From: Henricia sp. BOLD:AAB3569
Lineage: Eukaryota; Echinodermata; Asteroidea; Spinulosida; Echinasteridae
Direction: 5' to 3'
Assembly (NCBI GenBank): GCA_037783545.1
Contig: JBBELK010000557.1
Span: 1 to 64,000 of the forward strand
DNA length: 64,000 nucleotides
Positions 203 through 38,800 of this stretch are shown piece after piece. Positions within the stretch are counted from its first letter, which is position 1. Each line of letters opens with the position of its first letter. A program made the translations under genes and the position numbers. The notes under the pieces were generated by a model. It did not search any database, was not told the origin of the DNA, and saw only the letters and a program-made list of their open reading frames with translations.

Positions 203-264
203 AATCGCCTTGAGAAGCTTGCAGAAAGTCTGGTTCCTGATGACACGGAGGAGGAGTATTTCCG
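203..264 (+). CDS. Possible upstream NPHP1 exon (uncertain)
   Basis: An AG acceptor after a pyrimidine-rich stretch (ttatttctatcatctag) is followed by an open frame reading NRLEKLAESLVPDDTEEEYF and a GTTTGT donor. The helical, charged and then acidic make-up resembles the end of the nephrocystin-1 coiled coil where it enters the first Glu-rich segment. Its end phase (2) does not fit the ATG exon at 2591 directly, so an intermediate exon would be needed. It could also be chance. Confidence 0.3.
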
Positions 265-2590: not shown

Positions 2591-2972
2591 ATGAAGAATA
2601 AGCCTCCCGCAGTGTCCAAAAGTAAAGTTGTTGCCGCTGCTCCAAGTACTAAGAAAACGGCCGAAGAACATAATGGAGACCAAAATGATGACAATGAGAC
2701 AAAAAATACTGGTGCAGGAGATAAGGGACAACAGCCAAGTGATGAAAAAATCACTTCACCAACGTTGGTGAGCAAACTTAGCCGATTGAGCTTGTTTAGA
2801 CGCTCAAGCAAACGTTCCAAGGATACAGTGACTAAACCAATGTCAAGTGGGGATGCGAGTACTGCAGGGACAACAACAGAGCACAAAGGACGACAGAAAC
2901 AGGTGCAAGAGGAGCGGGAAAGCGCAAGACAGGAGGACGTTAAGCAGAGGCAGAAGGGGAAGATGAAGAAAG
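2591..2972 (+). CDS. NPHP1: NPHP1 exon 1 of this model (Lys/Ser-rich)
   Basis: The open frame starts at the ATG directly after an acceptor-like tttagtcag and ends at AAG|GTGAAC (phase 1). It encodes a charged, Ser/Lys/Glu-rich segment with a basic cluster ([10 protein letters not shown]) and no known domain. Human nephrocystin-1 has no equivalent, so linkage rests on phase agreement with the next exons. The ATG may be the true start or just an internal Met after a splice acceptor. Confidence 0.6.
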
Positions 2973-5900: not shown

Positions 5901-8900
5901 GGGAGGAATATTATGAAGAAGAAGAAGAAGATGATGAAGAAGATGATGAGGAAGAAGATGAAGATGAAGAAGAAGACGAGGGGGAGGAGAAGGAACAAGA
6001 GGAAGAGTAAGAATACCAACAATATTTCGTCCCCTTAAAGGAGAAGGGTACCCAAGAAACAAAAGACCTTGTGCTCAAGAAGTACAACTCGTAAATTATT
6101 TTAATGCAAAGAAAAAGAAATATTACCTACTGAAAAGCGCACAAGAACTTCACAAATAATCAAAATTTTAGCGATGCGTCGCACTATGGGTGCCGTCATT
6201 TTGTCCTAATACTGGTCAACGGATGACGTTTTTGCGGACAACGTTTTCGTGTATTGCCATAGAAATGCACAAAGGACTTGTACGCGAAAACGTTATTCTT
6301 TGCCCAATATTGGGACAAAATGGCGGCACCCATAGTGCGACGCATCGCTAAAAATTTGATTCTTTGTGAAATTCTTGTGCGCTTTTCAGTAGGTAATATT
6401 TCTTTTTCTTTGCATTAAAATAATTTACGAGTTGTACTTCTTGAGCACAAGGTCTTTTGTTCGAAATAGGCATCTCCATAGCAAATGCATGGAGCTGCGT
6501 ATTTCGTGGCACGAAATTGGCACCCCTGCATTGCTGACAAGCCCCTGCCTTTAACCAGAACTGGGTATGTCAATTTTTGGGCCCATCCACGGGATCAACA
6601 TTAACATTAACAAAGGTGTAAGTAACATCTATCGCAGTGTTCTCCACTGGTCAAAATTTTGTCAGGGCGCTGGGTGGGTGGTGGTGGGGGGGGGCTGGGG
6701 GGTGACACGGGCACGGGCACGGGCACGGGCACGCCCTCAAGAGACCGGTCAACAACTTCGCCTCTTAAACAATACATTTAAAACAGGCTAGGGGCCTGGA
6801 CGCTGATAATGAAATTATCACTCGTCCAGGCACCTAGCCGGTTTTAAACGTATTGTTTAAGACTAGACAAACCCACTTTTATTCCCTTATTGTAATTACA
6901 TTGCAAGCTGTCAGGTCTAGACTTAATTTATCTTGTTGCAGGGAAGATGAAGAAGAAGAGGAGTCTGGAGGAACAGAGGAATCTGGAGGAACGGAGGAGT
7001 CTGATGGTTCAGTCTTTGTATCACCTGATGAAGGGGTAAGCTGGCTCCTGATTGGTTATACCATAGGTCACATGATGACAAGTCTTACATCTGATTGGTT
7101 GAACAGAGGAGTCTGATGGTTCAGTCTTTGTGTCACCCAATAAAGGGGTAAGCTGGCTCCTGATTGGTTATACCATAAGTCACATGATGACAAGTCTTAC
7201 ATCTGATTGGTTGAACAGAGGAGTCTGATGGTTCAGTCTTTGTGTCACCCGATGAAGGGGTAAGCTGGCTCCTGATTGGTTATACCATAGGTCACATGAT
7301 GACAACTCTTACATCTGATTGGTTGAACAGAGGAGTCTGATGGTTCAGTCTTTGTGTCACCCGATGAAGGGGTAAGCTGGCTCCTGATTGGTTATACCAT
7401 AGGTCACATGATGACAAGTCTTACATCTGATTGGTTGAACAGAGGAGTCTGATGGTTCAGTCTTTGTGTCACCCGATGAAGGGGTAAGCTGGCTCCTGAT
7501 TGGTTATACCATAGGTCACATGATGACAAGTCTTACATCTGATTGGTTGAACAGAGCAGTCTGATGGTTCAGTCTTTGTGTCACCCGATGAAGGGGTAAG
7601 CTGGCTCCTGATTGGTTATACCATAGGTCACATGATGACAAGTCTTACATCTGATTGGTTGATCAGAGGAGTCTGATGGTTCAGTCTTTGTGTCACCCGA
7701 TGAAGGGGTAAGCTGGCTCCTGATTGGTTATACCATAGGTCACATGATGACAACTCTTACATCTGATTGGTTGATCAGAGGAGTCTGATGGTTCAGTCTT
7801 TGTGTCACCTGATGAAGGGGTAAGTTGGCTCCTGATTGGTTATACCATAGGTCACATGATGACAAGTCTTACATCTGATTGGTTGATCAGAGGAGTCTGA
7901 TGGTTCAGTCTTTGTGTCACCTGATGAAGGGGTAAGCTGGCTCCTGATTGGTTATACCATAGGTCACATGATGACAACTCTTAAATCTGATTGGTTGATC
8001 AGAGGAGTCTGATGGTTCAGTCTTTGTGTCACCCGATGAAGGGGTAAGCTGGCTCCTGATTGGTTATACCATAGGTCACATGATGACAACTCTTACATCT
8101 GATTGGTTGATCAGAGGAGTCTGATGGTTCAGTCTTTGTGTCACCCGATGAAGGGGTAAGCTGGCTCCTGATTGGTTATACCATAGGTCACATGATGACA
8201 ACTCTTGCATCTGATTGGTTGATCAGAGGAGTCTGATGGTTCAGTCTTTGTGTCACCTGATGAAGGGGTAAGCTGGCTCCTGATTGGTTATACCATAGGT
8301 CACATGATGACAACTCTTACATCTGATTGGTTGATCAGAGGAGTCTGATGCTTCAGTCTTTGTGTCACCCGATGAAGGGGTAAGTTGGCTCCTGATTGGT
8401 TATACCATAGGTCACATGATGACAAGTCTTACATCTGATTGGTTGATCAGAGGAGTCTGATGCTTCAGTCTTTGTGTCACCCGATGAAGGGGTAAGCTGG
8501 CTCCTGATTGGTTATACCATAGGTCACATGATGACAAGTCTTACATCTGATTGGTTGATCAGAGGAGTCTGATGCTTCAGTCTTTGTGTCACCCGATGAA
8601 GGGGTAAGCTGGCTCCTGATTGGTTATACCATAGGTCACATGATGACAACTCTTAAATCTGATTGGTTGATCAGAGGAGTCTGATGGTTCAGTCTTTGTG
8701 TCACCTGATGAAGGGGTAAGCTGGCTCCTGATTGGTTATACCATAGGTCACATGATGACAACTCTTACATCTGATTGGTTGATCAGAGGAGTCTGATGGT
8801 TCAGTCTTTATGTCACCTGATGAAGGGGTAAGCTGGCTCCTGATTGGTTATACCATAGGTCACATGATGACAACTCTTACATCTGATTGGTTGATCAGAG

Positions 8901-11900
8901 GAGTCTGATGGTTCAGTCTTTGTATCACCTGATGAAGGGGTAAGCTGGCTCCTGATTGGTTATACCATAGGTCACATGATGACAACTCTTACATCTGATT
9001 GGTTGATCAGAGGAGTCTGATGGTTCAGTCTTTGTATCACCTGATGAAGGGGTAAGCTGGCTCCTGATTGGTTATACCATAGGTCACATGATGACAACTC
9101 TTACATCTGATTGGTTGATCAGAGGAGTCTGATGGTTCAGTCTTTGTATCACCCGATGAAGGGGTAAGCTGGCTCCTGATTGGTTATACCATAGGTCACA
9201 TGATGACAACTCTTACATCTGATTGGTTGATCAGAGGAGTCTGATGGTTCAGTCTTTGTATCACCTGATGAAGGGGTAAGCTGGCTCCTGATTGGTTATA
9301 CCATAGGTCACATGATGCCAACTCTTACATCTGATTGGTTGAACAGAGGAGTCTGATGGTTCAGTCTTTGTATCACCTGATGAAGGGGTAAGCTGGCTCC
9401 TGATTGGTTATACCATAGGTCACATGATGCCAACTCTTACATCTGATTGGTTGATCAGAGGAGTCTGATGGTTCAGTCTTTGTATCACCTGATGAAGGGG
9501 TAAGCTGGCTCCTGATTGGTTATACCATAGGTCACATGATGACAACTCTTACATCTGATTGGTTGATCAGAGGAGTCTGATGGTTCAGTCTTTGTGTCAC
9601 CTGATGAAGGGGTAAGCTGGCTCCTGATTGGTTATACCATAGGTCACATGATGCCAACTCTTACATCTGATTGGTTGATCAGAGGAGTCTGATGGTTCAG
9701 TCTTTGTATCACCTGATGAAGGGGTAAGCTGGCTCCTGATTGGTTATACCATAGGTCACATGATGACAACTCTTACATCTGATTGGTTGATCAGAGGAGT
9801 CTGATGGTTCAGTCTTTGTGTCACCTGATGAAGGGGTAAGCTGACTCCTGATTGGTTATACCATAGGTCACATGATGACAACTCTTACATCTGATTGGTT
9901 GATCAGAGGAGTCTGATGGTTCAGTCTTTGTGTCACCTGATGAAGGGGTAAGCTGACTCCTGATTGGTTATACCATAGGTCACATGATGACAACTCTTAC
10001 ATCTGATTGGTTGATCAGAGGAGTCTGATGGTTCAGTCTTTATGTCACCTGATGAAGGGGTAAGCTGACTCCTGATTGGTTATACCATAGGTCACATGAT
10101 GCCAACTCTTACATCTGATTGGTTGAACACAGGAGTCTGATGGTTCAGTCTTTATGTCACCTGATGAAGGGGTAAGCTGACTGCAGATGGGCCATGTTTT
10201 CTTCCACATCCAGATTGCATATTGCAAATTTCTTTTCATGGAAACTGGTAGTATTTTGGGGAGGTGTTTTATATGATTGTTACATGTAGGTTAGAAAGAA
10301 ATCCTTTTTCTAGAAAAATCTGAACAAGCGCCTTTGAGAATGTTTGAAGAACATTGGTTTAAAATTAAACAACTTCAATAATGTGAAATATTACAAACCC
10401 TTAGAGTCTCTTAAGTGTATGTCTGAATTTCTCGAGGTGTTTTTTCTTTTTTTTCTTTCACATTTCAAAGATGGAACGCTTTGAAGCAGTGTGTGACTAT
10501 GTCCCAGAGCAGAAAGACGACCTTGGCTTCAAAAGTGGTGATATTGTCACAGTCATCAATGCCGGGTGAGCAATGGTGCCAAGGTCAATGCTGTTTCAAA
10601 AAAGATAACCAGTATTAGTCATTTCAGGCTAAAAACTCCATCTCATACATAAACACTCTATAAACACATGTATGATGGCTACCCATCATACATGTGTGTG
10701 TGTGTGTATACATGCGAAAGAGTAGAATGGATATTCCTGAATTACAAATAATGATTGTTCTGATAAAATGGTTGCCATTTTCAAATATCTTTTGAAAAAA
10801 TCCAGGTGGCTTCCAAAAAGGAAATAAGTACAGATGTGAAATTGTATTTGTTTTCTTACTTGGCCTAACCCATATGTCAGCTTGACTTGACTAGAAATGG
10901 TTGCTAACCCTAACCCTAACCCATATGTCAGCTTGACTTGACTAGAAATGGTTGCTTTTTTGTAATAAAAATACAGGTGTTGTTAATTAAGATTTGTTTT
11001 GCCCTTACCCGATGTATATTAGCACTGTATACTCAGTGCTTTCTCAGTGTTTTGCCCTTACCCGATGTATATTAGCACTGTATACTCAGTGCTGTCTCAG
11101 TGTTTTGCCCTTACCCGATGTATATTAGCACTGTATACTCAGTGCTTTCTCAGTGTTTTGCCCTTACCCGATGTATATTAGCACTGTATACTCAGTGCTT
11201 TCTCAGTGTTTTGCCCTTACCCGATGTATATTAGCACTGTATACTCAGTGCTGTCTCAGTGTTTTGCCCTTACCCGATGTATATTAGCACTGTATACTCA
11301 GTGCTGTCTCAGTGTTTTGCCCTTACCCGATGTATATTAGCACTGTATACTCAGTGCTGTCTCAGTGTTTTGCCCTTACCCGATGTATATTAGCACTGTA
11401 TACTCAGTGCTTTCTCGAGACACTATGAAAAACATCATACAGGTGGCTTCTATAAAGAATGAGAGGGGATGTCAAATTAATATTTTGTTTTTAATTTTTT
11501 AACTCAGCCTTACCCATAAGTCAGCTAGAGTACACTGTGCCAGTATCAGCTGTATGACTTTATGAACAACCTGCATATAGGTGGACTTATACTGTCTCTG
11601 ATCTATGTATCTGAATAGTTTGACCACCATTTGACTGTTTGTAGGGGAGATGGCTGGTGGATGGCAGAGGATGAGGAAGGCAACCGGGGAATGGTGCCCA
11701 GCACATACCTCAAGGTAGCTATTGGTTTCATTACTTCCAAGAGCATGCAGAATGGACAATCATGATCACTGCTGTCATTTTCTCAGTGAATCCTTTTTAG
11801 GGATTGTTTGTTCACATTCAGTATACAAAGCATACTGAATGTTGCACTATACATGTAGATACAGTACCAGATAGGGGTCATTCCATGAAAACGGGACACA

Positions 11901-29900: not shown

Positions 29901-32900
29901 GGAACAAAAAGATGATTTAAAGTGAGTCAATATTCTACTGTTAAGTAAACTTTCATATACCACTCATATAGACAATCATTACAATATAGTATATTTTTAA
30001 GCCATTTAACTCATACTAAACAGTATCACCTAAAAATACTGACGACTTTTCGTAGAATAACTGGTGGATTTTGAGTTTTAAAAAGTGACCAACGTCAAAA
30101 GTGATTTTCTCAAAACAACTGCGATATTATGGGCTAGAACCAACAACTAGATAGAACCAACAAGCATAAATTGCCTATATTCTTACCCTTGTCACAGCAA
30201 AGCATGTATGTTACATTTGGTGGTTCTATTTATGAACGCTACCTTGCCCATCTGACTGAACTAAACATTACTTAAATGTTTGTCATGTGTTTATTTGCAG
30301 TACTTTACCAGATGATGTTGTGAGCAGTGCATGTTACATAGCAGCGTTATCTTGCTACCGCAAGTTGCTAGCTGAAGCACTCCTGATAGAGAGAAGTGAA
30401 CCTCGTAGCACAGGTGGGATCTTACAAACAGACAGCCTGGGCTGCTTTCGAGCGCTCGTCCCTGGTGCACCTTGGCGTTGGGAACGTTACGTCACACACA
30501 TGCGTACACACAATCGCGCTCGAAAGCGTTATCGGGATCCCTGGTGCACTACGGTCATTAAAAATTACATCCCCGCTAATAAAAGCTTAGTTTTCCACAA
30601 AATTAATCACAGGTATCCAATGAAAATAAATCATGAAAATATTTACAACATTTGCATTCGATGTGGAAGCTTGAACATTCAAAATATCAACCCAAATTTC
30701 CAGAATCATTCTACGACGCGCCAGTCATTTTTGCCGATTCATGCATGAGTACGCACATCTGCGCATGTCTCCCAGTTGTCCCGACGACTCGGAGGTCGGG
30801 AGCAGTTGGTGCCACCATCTGGTGCACCAACACACTTTCGGGCGAGCACCATGGAGCACCAGGGATCCCTGGTGCCGCGCTCGAAAGCAGCCCAGGTCAT
30901 GTGATCTGGTCATGTGATCTGGTCACGTGATCAGCAGTGCATGTTACATGTACATAGCAGCGTTATCATTCTACCGCAAGGTGCTAGCTGAAGCACTCCT
31001 GATAGAGAGAAGTGAACCTTGTAGCACAGGTGGGATCTTACAAACAGACACCCTGGTCATGTGATCTGGTCATGTGATCAGCAGTGCATGTACATAGCAG
31101 CGTTATCATGCTACTGCAAGGTGCTAACTGAAGCACTCCTGATAGAGAGAAGTGAACCCCGTAGCACAGGTTGGATCTTACAAACAGACACCCTGGTCAT
31201 GTGATCTGGTCATGTGATCAGCAGTGCATGTTACATAGCAGCGTTATGCTACCGCAAGGTGCTAGCTGAAGCACTCCTGATAGAGAGAAGTGAACCTTGT
31301 AGCACAGGTGGGATCTTACAAACAGACACCCTGGTCATGTGATCTGGTCATGTGATCAGCAGTGCATGTTACACAGCAGCGTTATCATGCTACCGCAAGG
31401 TGCTAGCTGAAGCACTCCTGATAGAGAGAAGTGAACCTTGTAGCACAGGTGGGATCTTACAAACAGACACCCTGGTCATGTGATCTGGTCATGTGATCTG
31501 GTCACGTGATCAGCAGTGCATGTTACATAGCAGCGTTATCATGCTACCGCAAGGTGCTAGCTGAAGCACTCCTGATAGAGAGAAGTGAACCTTGTAGCAC
31601 AGGTGGGATCTTACAAACAGACACCCTGGTCATGTGATCTGGTCATGTGATCAGCAGTGCATGTTACACAGCAGCGTTATCATGCTACCGCAAGGTGCTA
31701 GCTGAAGCACTCCTGATAGAGAGAAGTGAACCTTGTAGCACAGGTGGGATCTTACAAACAGACACCCTGGTCATGTGATCTGGTCATGTGATCAGCAGTG
31801 CATGTTACATAGCAGCGTTATCATGCTACCGCAAGGTGCTAGCTGAAGCACTCCTGATAGAGAGAAGTGAACCTTGTAGCACAGGTGGGATCTTACAAAC
31901 AGACACCCTGGTCATGTGATCTGGTCATGTGATCTGGTCACGTGATCAGCAGTGCATGTTACATAGCAGCGTTATCATGCTACCGCAAGGTTCTTTTAGC
32001 CATCACGTGCTACACGAGTCTGCCCCGGTGGCAGCCACCACTACCCGAGCTCGCGGGCGGGTCTGTGGTGTAAAGCAAGGTGTAATGACGTCACCTAGTA
32101 ACCGCGAGTAGTAAAACATGGCGGACAGTTTGGAATCGCGACGTGAGTACGAAGAAAAACACTTATTTATGACACAAAATAGGAGGGAATTGGGCTGTAC
32201 ATACATTTGACTGAATCAGATGTCTGTGGGCATTGACAAAGTTTATTTCGGTACTTTAGGGCTACTATTTTTGCGTGGCGCCGGCTTCATTTTTCATCCC
32301 GAATCAAACGATAACGGCGTTTATAAATCCCCACCCGGCAACAACCTTTGACCACGTGTTCCCAGAATTCAAAGCGAGACCCTAGTTTGTGTCGTTCGTT
32401 TTGCATCTTCTGGGGGCTTCCCCCGGTGTAAACCCCGTGTTACACGAGGTAAGCATCTCGAACGCCCCCCATAGCAGCGTTATCATGCTACCGCAAGGTG
32501 CTCGCTGAAGCACTCCTGATAGAGAGAAGTGAACCTTGTAGCACAGGTTGGATCTTACAAACAGACACCCTGGTAATGTGATCTGGTCATGTGATCTGGT
32601 CACGTGATCAGCAGTGCATGTTACGTAGCAGCATTATCATGCTACCGCAAGTTGCTAGCTGATTCACTCCTGATAGAGAGAAGTGAACCTCGTAGCACAG
32701 GTGGGATCTTACAAACAGACACCCTGGTCATGTGATCTGGTCATGTGATCAGGTCATGTGATCAGCAATGCATGTTACATAGCAGCATTATGTAACCAGG
32801 GCCATTAAGGTGAAAGGAAAATAATGTACTGCTACCCAACCTGATTCCTCTAAATGAAGGTACAATGATTGCCTGCTCATCCTAATGATATGTAGGGTAC

Positions 32901-35900
32901 AATGATTGCCTGCTCATCCTAATGATATGTAGGGTACAATGATTGCCTGCTCATCCTAATGATATGTAGGGTACAATGATTGCCTGCTCATCCTAATGAT
33001 ATGTAAGGTACAATGATTGCCTGCTCATCCTAATGATTGTTTTTTGTTTCCTTTTGACAGATCTGATCCACAACCCAGTACTTGCTAATTTTCCAAAGGC
33101 CACACTCTACCTAGATATTATGGATGCATTAAGGGTAAGGCTAGCCAAGATTCACCTAAACATATGTGGTTTATAATATGTCGGCAGTGTTCTCCACAGG
33201 TTTTCTATTTTTCTAGGGCAGCACTTGCAAGATAACGAGCACAGCCTGTCATTGTGAGTGCCAATTCTAAAGCCTAGCGTACATCCACATTGCAACTGGA
33301 AGCAACTCAACTGATCATTTGCTGTTGATGTGTGCGTAGTGCGCTCATCGACAGCAACTGATCAGTTGCGCAACTAGCAGCAACTGGGAGCATCTAGCCA
33401 AGTCTACATTTCCAGAGCGTGCACATTTACACAGCAACTCGGTAAAGCCTAGAGTACATTGACCTTGCAACTGGAAGCCACTGTTGCTGTGCGCGCACAT
33501 GATCAGATGTACGCGAGCAACAGACAGCAACTAGTTGCAAGTACGGCTACATTGACACAACTGACCGCAACTGGGTACAACTAGTTGCCAGAAAGTAGAA
33601 CATGAGCAACTCGCGGCAACTGGGATTTTCCAGTTGACAGTAGTTGCAAGTGCGCGTACATCAACCTTTTTTAAGTAACTGATCAGTTGCTCCTAGTTGC
33701 TCCCAGTTGCCGGAAACACAAATTGCCACTAGTTGCTTCCAGTTGCAATGTCGATGTACGCTAGGCTTAAAGGCGCGAAACCCACAACGGAGGTCTGGGA
33801 GGCATCACCCAGAAAATGTTGAATTTAAAAGGCTCTGAGGGGCATTTTTCTAGCACCTTGGAATAATTTTACCCTGATAGAAGTCATATCAACGATACCA
33901 ATTTTTTTATCGGAGTTGAAACATTTTTTTGGGGTTGATTTTTCGTTGTGATTCCCACCACATCTTAATTTGTCTTGTTTAATTTGAGATACATTGTTAC
34001 ATGCATTTGTGGTTGGTGGGATGTGAATTTTGGTAGGGATCCTCAATAACTGACCCTACTTGTGTGTCTTTCTTTTTGTCTATATTTCATACTACCAAAA
34101 TATCAAAGCTGATGTGTAATGTTTGCCTATTTTATTTTAACAGAGCTGCTGGTCACACAAGAAACGTTCAATGAAGAAATCTGACAAGGTGAGATCTCCA
34201 ATGATGTCAATCAATCAGCCTCTTTGACACTTGCCAAAGTTCACTGGTATACACACATGTATTATAAAATGGTGGATTTTTGTACTTTGCACATGTCTAC
34301 AGGGTACTCCTGGCACTGTTGACATTATTATCGCTGCCATCAGGGAATCGCCAGAACCATTTCGCTTCAACTAGGTGGCTACCTGGCCAAGGCACACAAC
34401 CCTATCATCACTTAGATTGTAGCATTCCCCCTACAGGGTACTCCTGGCACTGTTGTCATAATTACCATTTCACTTCAACTAAGTGGCAACCTGGCCAAGG
34501 CATACAACCCTATCAACACTTAGATTGTAGCATTCCTCCTAACAGCTCCCTCAATATTGCTTAGGTTAACGAGGCAATTAAAATTGTCTTGCCTGTGGAT
34601 ACAAACAACCTCTCGATGATAAGCATGGATGTGTATACCAACATATGCTCTCTGCACATTGTAAAATTGATGTATATATTGTGCAGTACATGTATGTCAT
34701 TTGTTCATACAGAGAGATGCCGAGCAGGTACTGAAGTTATTCAAGGATGTGTGTATGGAGAGCATCTACCCACTGCTGTATAGTTTGTACAGATGATGTT
34801 TATGTAATTTGTTAATACAGAGACACGCTGATCAAGTACTGAAGTTATTCAAGGATGTGTTTATGGAGAGCATCTACCCACTGCTGTATAGTTTGTACAG
34901 ATGATGTTTATGTAATTTGTTAATACAGAGACACGCTGATCAAGTACTGAAGTTATTCAAGGATGCGTGTATGGAGAGCATCTACCCACTGTTGTATAGT
35001 TTGTACAGATGATGTTTATGTAATATGTTAATACAGAGACACGCTGATCAAGTACTGAAGTTATTCAAGGATGCTGATCAAGTACTGAAGTTATTCAAGG
35101 ATGCGTGTATGGAGAGCATCTACCCACTGTTGTATAGTTTGTACAGATGATGTTTATGTAATATGTTAATACAGAGACACGCTGATCAAGTACTGAAGTT
35201 ATTCAAGGATGCGTGTATGGAGAGCATCTACCCACTGCTGTATAGTTTGTACAGATAATGTTGATGTAATTTGTTAATACAGAGACACGCTGATCAAGTA
35301 CTGAAGTTATTCAAGGATGCGTGTATGGAGAGCATCTACCCACTGCTGTATAGTTTGTACAGATGATGTTTATGTAATTTGTTAATACAGAGACACGCTG
35401 ATCAAGTACTGAAGTTATTCAAGGATGCGTGTATGGAGAGCATCTACCCACTGCTGTATAGTTTGTACAGATGATGTTTATGTAATTTGTTAATACAGAG
35501 ACACGCTGATCAAGTACTGAAGTTATTCAAGGATGCGTGTATGGAGAGCATCTACCCACTGCTGTATAGTTTAATTGTACAGACGATGTTTATGTAATTT
35601 GTTAATACAGAGACACGCTGATCAAATACTGAAGTTATTTAAGGATGCGTGTATGGAGAGCATCTATCCACTGCTGCATAGTTTAATTGTACAGACGATG
35701 TTTATGTAATTTGTTAATACAGAGACACGCTGATCAAATACTGAAGTTATTTAAGGACGCGTGTATGGAGAGCATCTATCCACTGCTGTATAGTTTAATT
35801 GTACAGATGATGTTTATGTAATTTGTTAATACAGAGACACGCTGATCAAGTACTGAAGTTATTCAAGGATGCGTGTATGGAGAGCATCTACCCACTGCTG

Positions 35901-38207
35901 TATAGTTTGTACAGATGATGTTTATGTAATTTGTTAATACAGAGACACGCTGATCAAGTACTGAAGTTATTTAAGGATGTGTGTATGGAGAGCATCTACC
36001 CACTGCTGTATAGTTTGTATAGATGATGTTTATGTAATGTGTTAATACAGAGACACGCTGATCAAGTACTGAAGTTATTTAAGGACGCGTGTATGGAGAG
36101 CATCTACCCACTGCTGTATAGTTTAATTGTACAGATGATGTTTGTCATTTGTTAATACAGAGACACGCTGATCAAGTACTAAAGTTATTCAAGGATGCGT
36201 GTATGGAGAGCATCTACCCACTGCTGTATAGTTTGTATAGATGATGTTTGTCATTTGTTAATACAGAGACACGCTGATCAAGTACTGAAGTTATTCAAGG
36301 ATGTGTGTATGGAGAGCATCTATACCCACTGCTGTATAGTTTGTACAGATGATGTTTATGTAATTTGTTAATACAGAGACACGCTGATCAAGTACTGAAG
36401 TTATTCAAGGATGTGTGTATGGAGAGCATCTACCCACTGCTGTATAGTTTGTATAGATGATGTTTGTCATTTGTTAATACAGAGACACGCTGATCAAGTA
36501 CTGAAGTTATTCAAGGATGTGTGTATGGAGAGCATCTACCCACTGCTGTATAGTTTGTACAGATGATGTTTGTCATTTGTTAATACAGAGACACGCTGAT
36601 CAAGTACTAAAGTTATTCAAGGATGCGTGTATGGAGAGCATCTATCCTCTGCTGTACTCCGCAACTTTGCCTCCATACAAGTTTGGTGATCCGCAGAATG
36701 AACAGGTAATGAGACTGGATGTTATTCATCAGCCCTTGACCTTATTAAACTCCCAGGGTGTATGTAAAATCATATTGATTTTGGAGGATTGAGGAGAGTT
36801 AGGGTTAATAGCTATTTAGTGGGGTTTTATAGAACTTTAAAGGGCTGAATTGCATAAAGCTTTCACCTAAACCACGATATAATAGGTGGGTGGTGCCATT
36901 GATGACAGTTGATGGCCAAAGACACTGGGGAATCCCTAATACATGAAAGTACATGAAAGTATGCTCTGGAATCATTAAGTGTATTAAGCAATACACTGGA
37001 CCAACAGGTTTACATCCCTTCCGAAGGATGGAGCAATTGTGATTATTTTTGTTTTACTCAAGGGCACAGGTACATAACTGGGTATCAAACCTGCAACATC
37101 AAGCTTTGCCCAATACCTATGGCACACGGGAAGATGCTCTACCAGCTGAGCTACAAGGCACATGCAGTGATATACTCCTTCAGGTTTTCCCCAAAACCTC
37201 GGACACACCAGGCATATGCTCTACCAGCTGAGCTATAAGGCACAGTGGTATACATTGTACTCACTATGGTTTCCCCCAAGACCTCGGACACACCAGGCAG
37301 ATGCTCTACCAGCTGAGTATTGAGGCACAGTGGCGTACTCACTAAGGTTTTCCCCCAAGACCTCTGACACAACAGGCAGATGCTCTACCAGCTGAGCTAT
37401 TAGACACAGTGGTACATGTACACTCCCGCAGGTTTTCCCCAAGACCTCTGACACACCAGGCAGATGCTGTACCAGCTGAGCTATGAGGCACAGTGGTATA
37501 CTCTCCCAGGTTTTTTTCAAGACCTCGGACACACCAGGCAGATGCTGTACCAGCTGAGCTATTGAGGCACAGCGGCATACTACGGATCATTAAAGTGCGT
37601 TACCTAACACAGTGGACCAACGGCTTTACATCCCTTCGAAGGATGGAGCAAATGTGTTTAGGGAAGACACACAAAGCTAACCGCCGGTACCGACAGCGGT
37701 ACCGCTGCGGTACTGCTCGAGAACAGCTCACTTAGTGCAGGTGGTACCGCTAAAAACCGCAGTCGGTACGGGCGGTTAGATTTATGTGTCTTAATTCCCT
37801 TGAGTGCCTTGCTCAAAGGCACAGGTACCACAGCCGGGTATTGAACCCACAAACCCAAGTTTTCACCCGAGTATTGCGAGTCAGTGACCTAACCCACTTG
37901 ACCACAGTACCCCTCTGACACATCGAGCAGATGTTCCACCAGCTGAGCTATGAGGCACAGTGGTATACTTCCTCAGGTTTTCCCTATAGGAACCGCATCT
38001 AGGCAAAGACCTAATCATAATCTAATGTGCTTCATTTGTTCATATATCCCTGTCCAGGAGCGTTGGGAGGAAATCTCCAGCATGTTGAAGCAGTGTCAAT
38101 CTAATGGCATATTGGACTATCTGCTCAAGCCTGGTGTTATGCACACACCTATTGATATCAACGAAATGACCTTTGACGTTTTGGAAGTCTACCATCATGA
38201 CAGCTGA
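2591..38207 (+). CDS. NPHP1: Nephrocystin-1 (24 exons traced; 5' end not resolved)
   Basis: Nephrocystin-1 is a scaffold of the ciliary transition zone and epithelial junctions; known partners of the vertebrate protein include nephrocystin-4, inversin, p130Cas and filamin. Joined exons are 2591-2972, 3650-3947, 5719-6006, 6942-7035, 10471-10565, 11645-11714, 12878-12929, 13534-13567, 16881-16923, 21598-21682, 22577-22668, 23170-23245, 24163-24215, 25571-25645, 26013-26085, 27448-27485, 28020-28105, 28720-28796, 29822-29921, 30301-30413, 33061-33134, 34144-34188, 36589-36705 and 38058-38207. All phases agree. The product is about 869 residues from the ATG at 2591, against 732 in human. Order: Lys/Ser-rich and acidic N-terminal part, SH3 (exons 5-6), then the nephrocystin homology region with family-typical strings such as [33 protein letters not shown] and EVDPSIS. 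Expected N-terminal coiled coil is not found, and about 60 residues present in human between exons 9 and 10 are not seen. Identification is firm; the N-terminal exons are less so. Confidence 0.93.
3228..3458. mobile_element. Tc1/mariner-type MITE
   Basis: The ends are inverted repeats of about 28 bp. The left reads TACAGTTGAGGTTAGAAGTA; the right is its near-perfect reverse complement. Both begin with TACAGTT, the form seen in Tc1-like transposons that duplicate TA. It is 231 bp long, does not encode a transposase, and lies in the intron between exons 1 and 2. Confidence 0.8.
3650..3947 (+). CDS. NPHP1: NPHP1 exon 2 of this model (acidic then Lys/Ser)
   Basis: The acceptor is ccccaaccag and the donor ATGGACAG|GTGCTT. 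Entry phase 1 and exit phase 2 keep the frame from exon 1 into exon 3. It encodes an acidic stretch ([19 protein letters not shown]) followed by a Ser/Lys-rich part. If the donor is skipped the frame runs to a TGA at 4045-4047, so a short read-through end is a possible alternative. Confidence 0.6.
4639..4770 (+). mobile_element. tRNA-derived SINE (cctcatagctcag family)
   Basis: An A-box-like start (gcctcatagctcagcttg), a B box (gggttcaaatctc) and the family tail (accatatgattttgttttc...catatttggt) are in order. It is the same family as the array at 1.7-2.6 kb. About 5 kb of sequence with no recognisable coding content surrounds it apart from MITEs. Confidence 0.7.
5432..5669. mobile_element. 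MITE with GGGGCCAATTTCAT ends
   Basis: Terminal inverted repeats of about 48 bp begin GGGGCCAATTTCATAAAGC on the left, and the reverse complement ends in gaaattggcccc on the right. Internal sequence is AT-rich and non-coding. Ends of this type are common in marine invertebrate genomes. Confidence 0.85.
5719..6006 (+). CDS. NPHP1: NPHP1 exon 3 of this model (first Glu-rich segment)
   Basis: The acceptor aaaaatcag leads to [16 protein letters not shown], then a nearly pure Glu/Asp run to the donor GAAGA|GTAAGA (phase 2). Vertebrate nephrocystin-1 has Glu-rich stretches on both sides of its SH3 domain, and this fits the first one. A stronger-looking internal donor (GATGATG|GTAAGA at 5762) could give a 44-base version, but that would not keep the frame into exon 4. 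Confidence 0.75.
6059..6460. mobile_element. Fold-back element, 150-bp arms
   Basis: Bases 6059-6208 and 6311-6460 are near-perfect reverse complements (for example acaaaagaccttgtgctcaa against ttgagcacaaggtcttttgt), with a loop of about 100 bases. It has no coding capacity. A more diverged relative with similar ends lies at 49.25-49.57 kb. Confidence 0.85.
6764..6861. repeat. Perfect-looking 40-bp-arm hairpin
   Basis: The arms read cttaaacaatacatttaaaa and, on the other side, its reverse complement with few changes; both continue through ggctag..cctggacg. The loop is about 20 bases. A G-rich stretch with repeated gggcac words (6670-6733) precedes it. It is probably a small fold-back insertion. 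Confidence 0.7.
6942..7035 (+). CDS. NPHP1: NPHP1 exon 4 (Glu-rich end, donor duplicated downstream)
   Basis: Acceptor tcttgttgcag, donor GATGAAGGG|GTAAGC, phase 2 in and 0 out. It encodes [11 protein letters not shown], a twice-repeated GGTEES, and ends [13 protein letters not shown] just before the SH3 domain. The last 39 bases and the donor are repeated 28 more times in the following intron. Confidence 0.85.
7036..10172 (+). repeat. 112-bp tandem array copying the exon 4 donor, 28 copies
   Basis: The donor GGGGTAAG occurs first at 7033 and last at 10169, which is exactly 28 periods of 112 bp with no net length change. Each unit holds intron sequence (ctcctgattggttataccat, ggtcacatgatgac, tctgattggttgaacag) and then the last 39 bases of exon 4 with the donor. 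The join creates cagag|GAGTCTGATGG, so every unit contains a 39-base, phase 0-0 segment between an AG and a GT. Units differ by a few substitutions (aactctt/aagtctt, ttgaacag/ttgatcag, tcaccc/tcacct). Confidence 0.95.
10471..10565 (+). CDS. NPHP1: NPHP1 exon 5 (SH3 domain, first half)
   Basis: Acceptor ctttcacatttcaaag, donor GCCGG|GTGAGC, phase 0 in and 2 out. It encodes [20 protein letters not shown] and on to [15 protein letters not shown] matches the ALYDY motif and the DDLGF stretch the RT loop of SH3 domains. The SH3 of nephrocystin-1 binds proline-rich partners such as p130Cas. Confidence 0.92.
10904..10952 (+). repeat. 49-bp duplication with short telomere-like run
   Basis: The segment cctaacccatatgtcagctt...aatggttgct occurs twice in a row (from about 10864 and 10914). 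Between them is ctaaccctaaccctaaccc, three copies of the (TTAGGG)n motif. It is probably a small replication or repair scar. Confidence 0.6.
11001..11420. repeat. 53-bp hairpin satellite, 8 copies
   Basis: gcccttacccgatgtatatt starts at 11001, 11054, 11107, 11160, 11213, 11266, 11319 and 11372, an exact 53-bp step. Each unit contains AGCACTG-TATACT-CAGTGCT, a perfect 7-bp-arm inverted repeat. Units differ only at tgctttctc/tgctgtctc. The core is shared with the 43-bp satellite at 17.1 kb. Confidence 0.95.
11645..11714 (+). CDS. NPHP1: NPHP1 exon 6 (SH3 domain, second half)
   Basis: Acceptor gactgtttgtag, donor CTCAAG|GTAGCT, phase 2 in and 0 out. It encodes [20 protein letters not shown] and YLK. 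The WW pair and the G.VP..Y signature are the ligand-binding landmarks of SH3 domains. With exon 5 the SH3 fold is complete, about 55 residues. Confidence 0.93.
12878..12929 (+). CDS. NPHP1: NPHP1 exon 7 (post-SH3 linker)
   Basis: Acceptor tgaatttcttacag, donor CACGAAG|GTAATT, phase 0 in and 1 out. It encodes [17 protein letters not shown]. It occupies the place of the second Glu-rich segment of vertebrate nephrocystin-1 but is shorter and less acidic. Confidence 0.85.
12931..13437. mobile_element. MITE touching the exon 7 donor
   Basis: The left end (aatttcggacgtttcacaat...gccaccaag) and the right end (cttggtggcg...gaaacgccccaattgaaatt) are inverted repeats of about 50 bp with some mismatches. 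An inner hairpin (ctgcggtgtat / atacaccgcag, 13231-13287) is present. The left end begins within a few bases of the exon 7 donor, so part of that 5' splice-site context may come from the element. Confidence 0.65.
13534..13567 (+). CDS. NPHP1: NPHP1 exon 8 (34 bases)
   Basis: Acceptor ttggttttcccacag, donor CAAAAC|GTAAGT, phase 1 in and 2 out. It encodes [11 protein letters not shown]. It is a short linker exon whose place follows from phase agreement with exons 7 and 9. Confidence 0.8.
13848..13968 (-). mobile_element. tRNA-like SINE head inside a 20-bp inverted repeat
   Basis: On the minus strand it reads tatagctcagctggtagagc (A box), a six-base anticodon stem tctgcc/ggcaga and a B box ggttcgattcc. 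Acceptor and T stems have mismatches, so it is a tRNA-derived pseudogene rather than a tRNA. It is bracketed by accaaacttgggatgagag and its reverse complement. Confidence 0.65.
13982..14296. mobile_element. MITE with TATAGACCTTTATC ends
   Basis: tatagacctttatcacggtg at the left is matched by its reverse complement ending at 14296, followed inward by imperfect ..catctt/aagatgg. It has no coding capacity. It lies in intron 8. Confidence 0.75.
15681..16700 (-). mobile_element. tRNA-derived SINE (ggccgagtggtta family), split by a hAT insertion
   Basis: The tRNA-like head is at the high-coordinate end. On the minus strand it reads gtggccgagtggttaggg, then B box gggttcgaatccggc, and it ends in an ATT-repeat tail. 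The SINE is interrupted at 15717-16378 by a hAT-type element. Other copies: 28305-28620, 36908-37110, 37583-37914, 55400-55748 (minus) and 51680-51945 (plus). Confidence 0.85.
15717..16378. mobile_element. Non-autonomous hAT transposon with perfect 8-bp target duplication
   Basis: The element is bounded by TAGTGCTG and CAGCGCTA and flanked on both sides by attcatac (15709-15716 and 16379-16386). The uninterrupted SINE at 55.4 kb shows the single-copy target. Subterminal regions are rich in palindromic gtttaaacgtttaaac. An 8-bp duplication is the mark of hAT transposases. No intact transposase frame is seen, only short ORFs. Confidence 0.9.
16881..16923 (+). CDS. NPHP1: NPHP1 exon 9
   Basis: Acceptor ggtttaacttgcag, donor AATGAA|GTGAGT, phase 2 in and 0 out. 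It encodes [15 protein letters not shown], the start of the nephrocystin homology region (human has a similar W...V.KAI.E helix here). The next human segment of about 60 residues is not found. Confidence 0.85.
17091..20874. repeat. 43-bp hairpin satellite, 88 copies
   Basis: The unit starts gttattcgccctcacgacgc and runs through ggtatgcactatatacttagtgc. From 17091 to the last full start at 20832 is exactly 87 x 43 bases. Copies appear identical except for four consecutive ones (about 20560-20690) with atgtac for atatac. Each unit holds GCACTA-TATACT-TAGTGC, a 6-bp-arm hairpin. Such uniformity means very recent expansion or efficient homogenisation. It lies in NPHP1 intron 9. Confidence 0.97.
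20908..20979 (-). tRNA. tRNA-Thr(AGT)-like gene or SINE head next to the satellite
   Basis: Read on the minus strand, a full cloverleaf can be drawn. Acceptor stem tgttcgg/ccgagca has 7 pairs, D arm gtcgagtggttaagac, anticodon stem tctgc/gcagg with loop ctagtat (anticodon AGT), and T arm gtggg-ttcgagt-cccgc. The box B is ggttcgagtcc. Good pairing favours a recent tRNA copy. The position beside tandem repeats and the lack of a T-run favour a SINE head or tRNA-like pseudogene. Confidence 0.5.
21598..21682 (+). CDS. NPHP1: NPHP1 exon 10
   Basis: Acceptor ttgtattgccaag, donor AAAGAAG|GTAATG, phase 0 in and 1 out. It encodes [20 protein letters not shown] and on to TARLLKEG. The MGAIP.GFRPS string is a hallmark of nephrocystin-1 proteins. 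Confidence 0.93.
21788..21935. mobile_element. Short MITE (ATAGACCATATCGAATAGCC ends)
   Basis: atagaccatatcgaatagcc and the reverse complement ggctattcgatacggtgtat bound 148 bases, with a further matching inner part (tggggca/tgcccca). Non-coding, in intron 10. Confidence 0.7.
22283..22405. repeat. Inverted repeat, about 32-bp arms
   Basis: gtcgagttcgggcagactgt and its reverse complement (with one base changed) bound a loop of about 55 bases. Probably a small fold-back element in intron 10. Confidence 0.65.
22577..22668 (+). CDS. NPHP1: NPHP1 exon 11
   Basis: Acceptor tttgcgtgtaccag, donor CGACAG|GTACAT, phase 1 in and 0 out. It encodes [20 protein letters not shown] and on to [11 protein letters not shown], matching the human LAFRDLMWD region of the nephrocystin homology domain. 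Confidence 0.93.
22772..22830 (+). mobile_element. Degenerate tRNA-derived SINE head
   Basis: attggtagggcatccgcac resembles a D arm and ggttcgaatcccggtggagcc a T arm plus acceptor end. The region between is AT-rich and unpaired. A SINE or tRNA relic in intron 11. Confidence 0.5.
23170..23245 (+). CDS. NPHP1: NPHP1 exon 12
   Basis: Acceptor ttgttttctcaacag, donor GGAGCAG|GTCAGA, phase 0 in and 1 out. It encodes [20 protein letters not shown] and PKVGA; human has IRSRPSRISL...CKMIP at this place. Confidence 0.93.
23311..23615. mobile_element. MITE with 65-bp near-perfect inverted ends
   Basis: cacactcctcaaaataaaac begins the left arm, and the right arm is its reverse complement through gtccTGACTTGGTCAAC. 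The ACACTCCTCAAAA-type ends resemble Tc1/mariner-group termini. 305 bases, non-coding, in intron 12. Confidence 0.8.
24163..24215 (+). CDS. NPHP1: NPHP1 exon 13
   Basis: Acceptor tttccttgataacag, donor GAGAAG|GTGAGC, phase 1 in and 0 out. It encodes [18 protein letters not shown] (human: LSRHVRLCLFDGNK). A decayed second copy lies at about 25101-25160. Confidence 0.93.
24240..24345. repeat. GGGGCATG-rich low-complexity tract
   Basis: Words of the type ggggcatggggcgggac repeat irregularly just after exon 13. A matching tract (24985-25078) lies just before the decayed exon 13 copy. The two tracts probably took part in the duplication. Confidence 0.7.
24370..24691. mobile_element. GC-rich palindromic MITE
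   Basis: tatcccagtgcgcaagccgc at the left is matched by ggtggcttgcgtactgggata at the right (imperfect inverted repeat). The inside is built of small palindromes (cgctagcgg, gcggccgctggtgg, ccgacggcagccgacgg). The long ORFs across it on both strands reflect lack of stops in GC-rich DNA, not genes. Confidence 0.65.
24700..24925. mobile_element. CAGTTGC/GCAACTG-rich element
   Basis: About twenty copies of GCAACT or AGTTGC words occur within 220 bases, many as gcaactagttgc palindromes, ending in cagttgcaaggtcaatgtac..taggctt. The same family is at 28936-29060 and 33269-33770, where paired ends aagcctagcgtacat / atgtacgctaggctt define it as an inverted-repeat element. Confidence 0.7.
25090..25175 (+). 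pseudogene. Decayed duplicate of NPHP1 exon 13
   Basis: tcataacaggagtggacaca and the following gacatgtcaggg..gtgtttaatgcagaaaag align with exon 13 and its intron flanks (gagccaactgttagccctgtac is also repeated). The donor GT is lost (aagATGAG instead of aagGTGAG), so it should not be spliced as the original is. Confidence 0.85.
25193..25438. mobile_element. hAT-like MITE inserted in a SINE
   Basis: Ends are ggagggttgtag and ctacaatcct, with subterminal gtccatcacaagtc repeats on one side and gacttgtgatggac on the other. It is flanked by gcctcata (25185) and gccttata (25439), an 8-bp target duplication with one change, inside a tRNA-type SINE that continues at 25447-25545. Confidence 0.75.
25447..25545 (+). 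mobile_element. tRNA-derived SINE, 3' part
   Basis: tagctcggctggtagagcat, B box gggttctaatccc, and the family tail ggaccataaatttgtctgtcatatgtcatgt. Same family as the array at 1.7 kb. It ends 25 bases before the exon 14 acceptor. Confidence 0.75.
25571..25645 (+). CDS. NPHP1: NPHP1 exon 14
   Basis: Acceptor gtgtttttgctacag, donor CCAAAG|GTACAC, phase 0-0. It encodes [20 protein letters not shown] and RFSPK; human reads [12 protein letters not shown]...TWTFSPQ here. Confidence 0.95.
26013..26085 (+). CDS. NPHP1: NPHP1 exon 15
   Basis: Acceptor tttattctctttcag, donor AATATTG|GTAAGT, phase 0 in and 1 out. It encodes [20 protein letters not shown] and EQNIG; human has ILPCLLDGDCFIRSN. Confidence 0.95.
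26741..27068 (+). mobile_element. tRNA-derived SINE with L2-like tail
   Basis: The tRNA-like head is tgtggtctagtgggtatgaa and gggggttcgagccccac. The body follows, then a 3' end ctgccgggtggatatgtgcgctatacaaat and an (att)n tail. The gcgctatacaaat end is typical of SINEs that use an L2-type LINE. A tandemly duplicated, reversed fragment is at 34300-34590. Confidence 0.85.
27448..27485 (+). CDS. NPHP1: NPHP1 exon 16 (38 bases)
   Basis: Acceptor ttttgttttttag, donor CGAACG|GTAAAA, phase 1 in and 0 out. It encodes [13 protein letters not shown], matching human GILFELGISYIRN. Confidence 0.92.
27586..27838. mobile_element. MITE (ACACTATCGCGGAAAAAT ends)
   Basis: gtttacactatcgcggaaaa and its near reverse complement ttttccgcgatagtgtgaac bound about 250 bases. 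The inner part also pairs in places (aactttg..caaagtt). Non-coding, intron 16. Confidence 0.8.
28020..28105 (+). CDS. NPHP1: NPHP1 exon 17
   Basis: Acceptor tgtttgtctgtag, donor AATAA|GTATGA, phase 0 in and 2 out. It encodes [20 protein letters not shown] and [16 protein letters not shown] is nearly invariant in the family. Confidence 0.94.
28305..28620 (-). mobile_element. tRNA-derived SINE (ggccgagtggtta family)
   Basis: Same family as at 15.7-16.7 kb, with the tRNA head at the high-coordinate end and the (att)n tail at 28305. It lacks about 45 bases of the tail-proximal part. Confidence 0.85.
28720..28796 (+). CDS. NPHP1: NPHP1 exon 18
   Basis: Acceptor cctccttgtgtag, donor AGAAATG|GTAAGG, phase 2 in and 1 out. 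It encodes [20 protein letters not shown] and PSISRN; human has [19 protein letters not shown]. Its last 24 bases, donor and following intron are duplicated once at 29062. Confidence 0.95.
29062..29225 (+). repeat. Duplicate of the exon 18 end, donor and intron
   Basis: gtagatccctctatcagcag aaatg|gtaaggcaatggcttcatt repeats 28773-28930 with few changes over about 160 bases. The donor is intact but no acceptor fits upstream, so it is a donor-only copy. A CAGTTGC element (28936-29060) separates the two copies. Confidence 0.88.
29595..29713 (+). repeat. 59-bp tandem duplication
   Basis: ctcctcccactgcaacaaca...ttcatcacaatgt occurs twice in a row (from 29595 and 29654) without changes. Intron 18, no coding meaning seen. 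Confidence 0.8.
29822..29921 (+). CDS. NPHP1: NPHP1 exon 19
   Basis: Acceptor aaaacttgaaccag, donor GATTTAAA|GTGAGT, phase 1 in and 2 out. It encodes [20 protein letters not shown] and on to [13 protein letters not shown]; human has IMTMRRQPQLLVKL. Confidence 0.93.
30301..30413 (+). CDS. NPHP1: NPHP1 exon 20 (donor end duplicated downstream)
   Basis: Acceptor gtgtttatttgcag, donor AGCACAG|GTGGGA, phase 2 in and 1 out. It encodes [20 protein letters not shown] and on to [18 protein letters not shown]. Its last 94 bases with the donor recur about nine times more up to 32.8 kb. Confidence 0.94.
30436..30896. mobile_element. MITE with CCTGGGCTGCTTTCGAGCGC ends
   Basis: The first 20 bases and the last 20 are perfect reverse complements. 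It interrupts the first intron unit after exon 20 (gacag|cctgg...ccagg|tcatgtg). A second copy in the opposite orientation is at 45619-46095. Words such as ctggtgcaccagggatccc repeat inside both ends. ORFs across it belong to the element and are not genes. Confidence 0.88.
31991..32469 (+). promoter_or_regulatory. Inserted promoter-like segment: CRE, RFX X-box, short ATG exon
   Basis: This 0.48-kb segment breaks an exon-20 repeat unit (accgcaaggt / catagcagcg). It holds TGACGTCA (32086-32093, CRE) overlapping GTCACCTAGTAAC (32090-32102), which fits the RFX X-box GTNRCC-N-RGYAAC exactly. An ATG follows at 32118, with 25 coding bases (MADSLESR plus one base) and a donor GTGAGT at 32143. X-boxes drive ciliary genes. 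The phase (1) fits exon 21. Whether it is used is inference. Confidence 0.45.
32859..33040 (+). repeat. 37-bp tandem repeat before exon 21, 5 copies
   Basis: tacaatgattgcctgctcat begins at 32861, 32898, 32935, 32972 and 33009. Each unit carries ctcatcctaatgat, which matches the branch-point consensus (CTAAT). The last copy sits 20-35 bases before the exon 21 acceptor, where a branch point is expected. Confidence 0.9.
33061..33134 (+). CDS. NPHP1: NPHP1 exon 21
   Basis: Acceptor tttccttttgacag, donor TTAAGG|GTAAGG, phase 1 in and 0 out. It encodes [20 protein letters not shown] and MDALR; human has DLISHPMLATFP...DVMDALR. Confidence 0.95.
33269..33770. mobile_element. GCAACT-rich inverted-repeat element, possibly nested
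   Basis: Ends are aagcctagcgtacatccaca and its partner tgtcgatgtacgctaggctt. A second internal start (aaagcctagagtacattgac, about 33446) suggests two nested or fused copies. GCAACT/AGTTGC words fill the inside. Same family as at 24.7 and 28.9 kb. Confidence 0.8.
34144..34188 (+). CDS. NPHP1: NPHP1 exon 22 (45 bases)
   Basis: Acceptor ttttattttaacag, donor GACAAG|GTGAGA, phase 0-0. It encodes [15 protein letters not shown], in the place of human SSWAGKESTLKRSEK. Confidence 0.92.
34300..34590 (-). mobile_element. SINE fragment, tandemly duplicated
   Basis: tactcctggcactgttg..ccatttcgcttcaacta..acaaccctatca..ttagattgtagcattcc is the reverse complement of the body of the SINE at 26.7 kb. Its inner part occurs twice (from about 34304 and 34438). 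Confidence 0.75.
34713..36588 (+). repeat. 108-bp tandem array copying the exon 23 acceptor and 5' part
   Basis: Acceptor-plus-exon starts (taatacag|AGACACGCTGATC) occur at 34821, 34929, 35037, 35175, 35283, 35391, 35499, 35611, 35723, 35835, 35943, 36051, 36161, 36267, 36377 and 36483. A first, more ancestral copy at 34713 reads RDAEQ. The copies stop at ctgctgtatag and then run into intron sequence with in-frame stops. The working exon is the 18th copy (36589). The unit is mostly 108 bases, with a 30-base internal duplication near 35066. Confidence 0.95.
36589..36705 (+). CDS. NPHP1: NPHP1 exon 23
   Basis: Acceptor atttgttaatacag, donor GAACAG|GTAATG, phase 0-0. It encodes [32 protein letters not shown] and GDPQNEQ; human has VLPLLHSTRLPPFRW. 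Only this copy continues past LLYS into the conserved ATLPPYKF. The first array copy (34713) has RDAEQ, closer to the vertebrate KRD. Confidence 0.93.
37100..37590 (-). repeat. tRNA-SINE-derived minisatellite, minus strand, about 6 copies
   Basis: accagctgagctat occurs at 37141, 37223, 37308, 37387, 37471 and 37549, a spacing of 78-85 bases. The units are the reverse complement of those at 1.7-2.6 kb, including the gaggttttcccc linker in place of a B box. A further single copy is at 37912-37990. Confidence 0.85.
37583..37914 (-). mobile_element. tRNA-derived SINE interrupted by a palindromic MITE
   Basis: A SINE of the ggccgagtggtta family is split after gatggagcaaatgtg and resumes at cttgagtgccttgctcaaagg. 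The insert (about 37664-37792) has ends aagacacacaaagctaaccg and its partner, with internal ggtaccgc palindromes. A related SINE fragment lies at 36908-37110. Confidence 0.8.
38058..38207 (+). CDS. NPHP1: NPHP1 exon 24 (last exon, stop)
   Basis: Acceptor catatatccctgtccag, phase 0 in, stop TGA at 38205-38207. It encodes [20 protein letters not shown] and [20 protein letters not shown], then VLEVYHHDS. Human ends with a comparable [21 protein letters not shown]. The C-terminus of about 25 residues is duplicated in the 3' flank. Confidence 0.95.
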   Translation, partial: ERWEEISSMLKQCQSNGILDYLLKPGVMHTPIDINEMTFDVLEVYHHDS

Positions 38208-38800
38208 CGGGGGTAATCTGCGTTTTATAAATGAACACTGCCAAGTTCTCAGGGTTTGATGCACGACAGATCAATCATGTCTGTACAGTTTTTGATACAG
38301 TCTATCTGCTGCAGCTTTGTGTTATGCACACACCCAATTATATCAATGAAATGACCATTGACCTTTTGGAAGTCTACCATCAGGAGGACAGCTGATAGGC
38401 CCGAGTCTGAAGCCATGTCTGAATTCATTGGCTTTGGCTTAAAATTACATATGATTCCCTGGTAGCCGCTAGGTAGACTTTTCATAGAATAGTGTGTGTA
38501 ATGTGTAATATATGCAGCCAATGATTTCAGAAATAGTGAACACTGCCAAGTTCTCTCAGGGTTGTATGCACAAGAGATCAATCATGTCTGTACATTTTTT
38601 GATACAATATTTCAATCATTCCTTTAATTCAGTCCCATGGCAACCATGATTTGAAATGGTTTTGTTAGTAATCCTGCCACGTGATCATGCATTCAATGCC
38701 AAAGATATATATTTTTACTGCATTTTCTTGGCAACTTTGTATTCTGGACCCCTAGTGAGTGGTTGTCTATTCCATTTGTGTACATGTAATTAAAGAACAA
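38208..38800 (+). other. Probable NPHP1 3' UTR with partial duplicate of the last exon
   Basis: gtgttatgcacacacccaat...ttttggaagtctaccatcag (38319-38390) repeats the end of exon 24, and aacactgccaagttctcagggt (38233) recurs at 38538. Together they show a tandem duplication of about 310 bases. A possible poly(A) signal, ATTAAA, is at 38789-38794. No other coding content is seen up to 39.59 kb. Confidence 0.7.

Follow-up and report, generated by a model that had tools for sequence, protein, structure and literature searches.

Tandem arrays across exon-intron boundaries in a predicted starfish NPHP1 gene resemble lancelet mirage minisatellites

Three tandem arrays in a starfish gene that we read as NPHP1 extend across an exon-intron boundary, namely at the donor of exon 4, the donor of exon 20 and the acceptor of exon 23. 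Many copies in each of the three retain the AG or GT signal, and the arrays together hold 54 GT or AG sites in addition to the working ones. This count bears out the original prediction that the pre-mRNA carries dozens of decoy donors and acceptors, and its statement that the coding frame is intact agrees with the open frame obtained through the working copies of 24 exons. The arrays are likely to be mirage minisatellites, a kind of repeat known from lancelet genes, of unusually large size and probably neutral.

Exon structure and identity of the gene

The window, that is the whole 64,000-nucleotide stretch of Henricia DNA under analysis, contains 24 exons (E1-E24) that were read from the sequence and join in frame into 869 codons plus a stop (2591..38207, plus strand). 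E1 is counted from its first ATG, and its true 5' edge probably lies a few bases upstream of that codon. Judged from its translation, the gene is starfish NPHP1 (nephrocystin-1), a gene of the cilium, with most of its length inside the window. Residues 370-869 of the predicted protein share 76% identity with the Asterias rubens nephrocystin-1-like protein at 99% coverage (E 1.2e-262). Among the best 120 of 541 matches, the proteins of A. amurensis and Acanthaster planci reach 75% and 74% identity over the same residues, and starfish proteins rank above those of crinoid, urchin, sea cucumber and acorn worm. In a phylogeny of nine proteins, a set without a brittle-star protein, the window protein groups with A. 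rubens, A. amurensis and Acanthaster planci with a support of 100/100; within this starfish group it joins Acanthaster weakly (90/91). Taken by itself, this placement indicates a starfish or, far less probably, another echinoderm close to the starfish. The predicted protein also has the NPHP1 layout of an SH3 domain (Pfam, E 1.5e-12) followed by a long conserved C-terminal part, and its top PDB match, confined to the SH3 part, is nephrocystin 1 (1s1n, E 7.2e-12).

An extra exon upstream of E1, designated E0 (203..264, plus strand), was located through tblastn matches and the flanking AG and GT read from the sequence. Residues 84-127 of Asterias rubens NPHP1 match positions 167-298 at 47.7% and Acanthaster residues 62-82 match positions 203-265 at 81%, while tblastn with the first 83 residues of the A. 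rubens protein found nothing in the window at an E threshold of 0.01. Since E0 matches Asterias residues within 84-127, the start of the gene would lie outside the window. The exon counted as the fourth in the original prediction is accordingly not the fourth of the gene, given the exon found upstream at 203-264. Within the poorly conserved N-terminal part, the acceptors of E2 and E3 score low (-1.8 and 0.6) and their positions may be wrong, without consequence for any of the three arrays. Exon 3 encodes a long Glu/Asp-rich tract from GAA/GAT repeats (5825-5976). This tract is extended by exon 4 through an 18-bp coding repeat (EESGGT, 6957-7003) at the place where the 112-bp array begins.

Arrays and duplications at exon edges

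The end of working exon 4 (6942..7035, plus strand) forms the first copy of a donor array that occupies 6994..10179 on the plus strand. Its 112-bp unit comprises roughly 41 bases of exon end, the donor and intron sequence. Tandem Repeats Finder (TRF) reports 28.4 copies with 98% matches, and the array contains 29 donor copies when the working one is counted, in keeping with the original prediction of up to 28 duplications at some sites. All 28 spacings are exactly 112 bp. When the copies were located by an exon word, GTAAG was found at the same distance in 29 of 29, as GTAAGC in 27 copies and GTAAGT in two. Comparison of the 27 interior copies demonstrated that neighbouring copies differ by 1.88 per 112 bp and copies twenty units apart by 4.57, a rise with distance matched by none of 1000 random reorderings of these copies. 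The first and last copies were left out of this comparison; the last is partial (median 40 differences), and the first is only slightly divergent, with a median of 4 differences against 3. Among the interior copies, 7 of 41 columns vary in the exon part and 8 of 65 in the intron part (P = 0.57), and five of the seven variable exon columns fall at codon positions 1 or 2. As the exon part is as variable as the intron part, nothing points to use of the copies, and the array displays a pattern of local growth without constraint. A search of the window for the intron part of the unit gave, among the matches listed outside the array, stretches of 10-15 bases at E 4.6, which is chance level. The sequence past the last copy bears a weak resemblance to the unit. 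A special insertion mechanism was considered for the partial last copy and set aside, an aged last copy explaining it equally well.

Duplication of the donor side of exon 20 was likewise verified. Working exon 20 (30301..30413, plus strand), placed by in-frame exon joining, is followed on the same strand by an array with nine extra donors (30906..32791), giving ten donor copies with the working one, of which eight read GTGGGA and two GTTGGA. Copies are spaced 138-154 bp apart outside two interruptions. One interruption, between the working exon and the rest of the array, is a dispersed repeat (30440..30895, plus strand) that has a second copy on the minus strand at 45619-46092 (86.6%). The other consists of unrelated DNA that splits the array at approximately 31990-32470 and has no second copy within the window. 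The two copies of the dispersed repeat lie in opposite orientations and have inverted ends (GCTGCTTTCGAGCGC).

The exon 23 array (34668..36656, plus strand) displays the acceptor side duplication that had been proposed. It carries 18 acceptors, usually spaced 106-112 bp apart, the last of which is the working one at the start of exon 23 (36589..36705, plus strand). One copy contains a 30-bp internal duplication. The search patterns behind the ten exon 20 donors and 18 exon 23 acceptors contained the splice signal itself. Separate exon words returned ten exon 20 copies and 19 exon 23 copies, one of the latter arising from the 30-bp duplication inside a unit, and this agreement indicates that no exon 20 or exon 23 copy reaching the junction has lost its signal. 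Among the 6 of 18 matches listed, identity to the working copy is 84.1% for the first exon 23 copy and 93.6-94.6% for the others. Variability along the exon 23 unit is 0.177 in its last stretch against 0.039 at the acceptor and 0.032 in the exon, which taken alone could suggest constraint; the contrast rests on ten columns beside length changes, and we therefore draw no conclusion from it.

Splice-site strength was scored with a small matrix built from this gene's own sites alone. On this scale 38 of the 54 copies equal or exceed their working site, including 28/28 at exon 4, 7/9 at exon 20 and 3/17 at exon 23. The working acceptor of exon 23 beats 14 of its 17 copies on this small own-gene matrix, which could mean that site strength has been kept there, a point against the neutral reading. 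Unused sites of comparable strength are ordinary in this gene, as beyond the arrays the score of the exon 4 donor is equalled or exceeded by 30 of 1681 GT sites other than working donors, and that of the exon 23 acceptor by 77 of 1445 AG sites other than working acceptors. Substituting any copy for the working site leads to a premature stop (28/28, 9/9 and 17/17 for exons 4, 20 and 23, or 54 of 54). For exon 20 the stop falls within the first retained stretch, so that all nine copies would give the same product. A random intron would likewise give a stop, and premature stops are therefore the null expectation.

Duplications had also been listed at four further exons, where the present reading differs from that listing. 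Upstream of exon 21, in what is likely its branch-point region, TRF detects a 37-bp unit in 4.8 copies (32859..33037, plus strand). The unit contains a branch-point-like CTAAT and the array stops 23 bases before the exon; the duplication proposed for this region is present, but it has no exon sequence. Exon 13 (24163-24215) has a single extra copy 940 bp away (25096..25178, plus strand, 84.5% identical) rather than an edge array, and the duplicate comprises the complete exon, including the edge on either side. Its use as a second working exon 13 is ruled out by AT standing where the donor GT should be. The end of exon 18, its donor and the start of the intron were copied once, at a distance of 289 bp (29061..29224, plus strand, 91% identical), and the coding end of exon 24 with its stop has one second copy in the 3' flank (38302..38395, plus strand, 85% identical, distance 185 bp). 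Both ends are thus duplicated as predicted, though by a single extra copy and not an array, and the exon 24 copy spans a stop codon rather than a splice site.

Origin of the arrays and alternative explanations

Minisatellite-like tandem duplications of exon-intron boundaries have been described in lancelet globin genes, where the duplicated boundary may be a 5' or a 3' one, and such repeats have been named mirages in lancelet Adh3 (PMC3087553). In the same account repeat number varies between haplotypes (6 and 3), and Adh3 data together with globin RT-PCR suggest that regular splicing is undisturbed. Homogenisation that spares the ends of the cluster is likewise part of the description there, as is length instability from one haplotype or tissue to another. 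In lancelet PGBD5, repeats of 60 and 108 bp overlap two exons and their copies differ between two genome versions (2 or 7; 3 or 6); this report cites Adh and troponin C, and notes that a predicted exon of PGBD5 was an array copy (PMC3902484). As in the Branchiostoma examples (Adh3, BflGb6, BflGb9, troponin C and PGBD5), the starfish arrays span a boundary and carry AG or GT in many copies. Their units are also similar in size to those given for lancelets, which measure 150-160 bp in the globins and 60 and 108 bp in PGBD5. Differences concern extent and evidence. Three boundaries are involved in starfish NPHP1 compared with two in lancelet PGBD5, and one unit reaches 29 copies, where 2 to 7 are cited for BflGb6 and PGBD5. 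Splicing and length variation have been studied for the lancelet mirages, whereas the NPHP1 arrays are known from one sequence.

Human genes within segmental duplications also have minisatellites that overlap exon-intron boundaries (PMC2812944). Unlike those in NPHP1, the human repeats as described there average four copies of a 30-bp unit, occur in recently duplicated primate genes and in some cases form new introns; NPHP1 is an ancient gene whose open frame implies no new intron. The Rogers model of intron gain through duplicated AG/GT proto-splice sites, as cited in PMC3087553, likewise involves splice signals duplicated within a gene. In that model, however, the duplicate becomes a working intron boundary, while the NPHP1 copies are confined to introns already present, and the frame is open through the original junction. 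An intronic minisatellite has been linked to alternative splicing in C. elegans in an account that, in the part drawn on here, contains no exon-edge repeats (PMC4039745), and short tandem repeats and segmental duplications are reported for a sea urchin immune gene family (PMC5103432). A keyword search of open-access literature, a collection that lacks most subscription journals, turned up, among the matches listed, no boundary-spanning repeat from an echinoderm. The lancelet and human cases (PMC3087553, PMC3902484, PMC2812944) contradict the original prediction that no described gene has this pattern. The kind of repeat is already known, and what exceeds the descriptions found is the starfish taxon and the copy number.

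We envisage that at each of the three sites a local tandem duplication happened to straddle an exon-intron boundary, and that the array then expanded by slippage or unequal exchange among neighbouring copies. Under exon definition, the spliceosome would pair the exon's outer site with the nearest inner site and generate a normal message, and the array would be tolerated inside the intron and would drift. As a boundary-spanning duplication keeps an intact exon at the array's border, normal splicing would still be possible; we assume it here, the frame being open when the working copies are joined. The original prediction correctly noted the working exon at the array edge, which is the geometry of any tandem duplication over one exon boundary. 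Interruption of the exon 20 array by unrelated DNA supports the mirage reading. If correct, this reading extends mirages from lancelets to a starfish. Exon 4 is followed by 29 donors, all scoring at least as well as the working one, the largest identical competing set that we have come across, and RNA reads from NPHP1 could directly test how a choice is made among many identical sites. The arrays also serve as a warning for annotation, as automatic gene models may mistake array copies for exons.

Arrays as such exceed chance by their length and identity, and their position was evaluated by a placement test in which a unit of each array's length was placed randomly in the gene and an edge was scored as included when at least 8 bp lay on both sides. 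Ten arrays were taken from the TRF rows within the gene, after exclusion of units up to 26 bp long, of the repeat in exon 3 that encodes Glu/Asp, and of a 38-bp unit rich in GC (2.0 copies, 24257-24332) that stops short of an exon edge. Three of the ten contain an exon edge where 0.70 would be expected, a post hoc P of 0.027. Local two-copy duplications contain an edge in 3/5 cases against 1.33 expected (P = 0.10), one of these edges being the coding end of exon 24 and not a splice site. Arrays and two-copy duplications combined give 6/15 against 2.04 (P = 0.006), and removal of four transposon-like or palindromic arrays gives 3/6 against 0.47 (P = 0.007). These P values overstate the surprise because the window was picked for the feature, the sets were chosen post hoc and exon-containing copies stay recognisable for longer. 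Placement on exon edges is mildly above chance, which random placement does not fully predict, and hints at a bias only. Exon edges in the starfish lineage might be mutationally prone to tandem duplication, for example through transcription-linked replication trouble, with mirages enriched across the genome. The enrichments for arrays, for the combined set and for the reduced set favour such a bias, as does the presence of boundary repeats in several of the lancelet genes described. Against it, the evidence comes from a single gene selected for the feature with an array set picked by the analyst, the two-copy duplications are not significant by themselves, exon copies remain recognisable longer with one partner under selection, and the gene is repeat-rich overall (34% in counted arrays against 22% of the remaining window). 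We regard this bias as unlikely; it is compatible with the mirage explanation and both could hold. It is similarly doubtful that minisatellites in starfish arise preferentially at exon edges, with many genes bearing large arrays of intact decoy sites which the spliceosome has to pass over, and does. If they did, the arrays would constitute a natural library on how exon definition chooses one site among dozens of near-identical candidates, and would keep supplying new introns.

The remaining explanations assign the copies a function or deny that they exist. Decoy sites could regulate NPHP1 output if use of a copy led to a stop and message decay, by which expression would be damped or timed, and the scores of 38 of the 54 copies together with the stops behind all of them are what such regulation would call for. 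Nearly any retained intron stretch has a stop, though, the exon part of the exon 4 array is not more conserved than its intron part, and lancelet mirages are said not to yield aberrant messages (PMC3902484). Regulation of this kind is very unlikely, and the earlier suggestion that the arrays tune splicing finds no support here, given substitutes that stop as a random intron would and an unconstrained exon part at exon 4. The copies might also act as extra cassette exons adding repeated protein segments, as an AG stands before the exon 4 copies (CAGAGG or CAGAGC in 27 of 28, CACAGG in the last) and would define an exon of approximately 41 nt. In the eight copies listed this AG scores -0.7 or -2.1, whereas the 23 working acceptors scored have a median of 7.3; at exon 20, eight of ten pseudo-exon starts have a donor in reach and the frame stops in all eight. 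We give this possibility hardly any weight. Expansion of a protein repeat through the exon 4 copies was tried with one 41-nt exon and with one set of three, and both stop the frame. Assembly artefacts are an extremely improbable source of the arrays; a simple joining error would produce neither the ordered differences along the exon 4 array nor the unrelated DNA that breaks the exon 20 array in two places, although copy numbers may be inexact. Neutral mirage repeats accordingly remain our preferred account of the three arrays.

Other repeats in and around the gene

Several further repeats were observed. Intronic arrays at 1731-2532 and 37132-37581 have units of approximately 78-85 bp on opposite strands, and both contain CTCAGCTGGTAGAGC. 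This sequence resembles a tRNA head, and each array looks like an expanded fragment of a tRNA-derived SINE. An intronic 43-bp unit repeated 88 times (17091-20881) contains a near-palindrome (GCACTATATACTTAGTGC), and a similar near-palindrome (GCACTGTATACTCAGTGC) occurs in an intronic 53-bp unit repeated eight times at 10995-11416. ARAGORN, run with the bacterial code, reported a minus-strand tRNA-Thr (AGT) at 20907-20979, directly past the end of the 43-bp array, and at 13868-13940 an incomplete tRNA; both may be SINE heads. Directly downstream of NPHP1, a 107-bp unit is repeated approximately 50 times (39723-45001).
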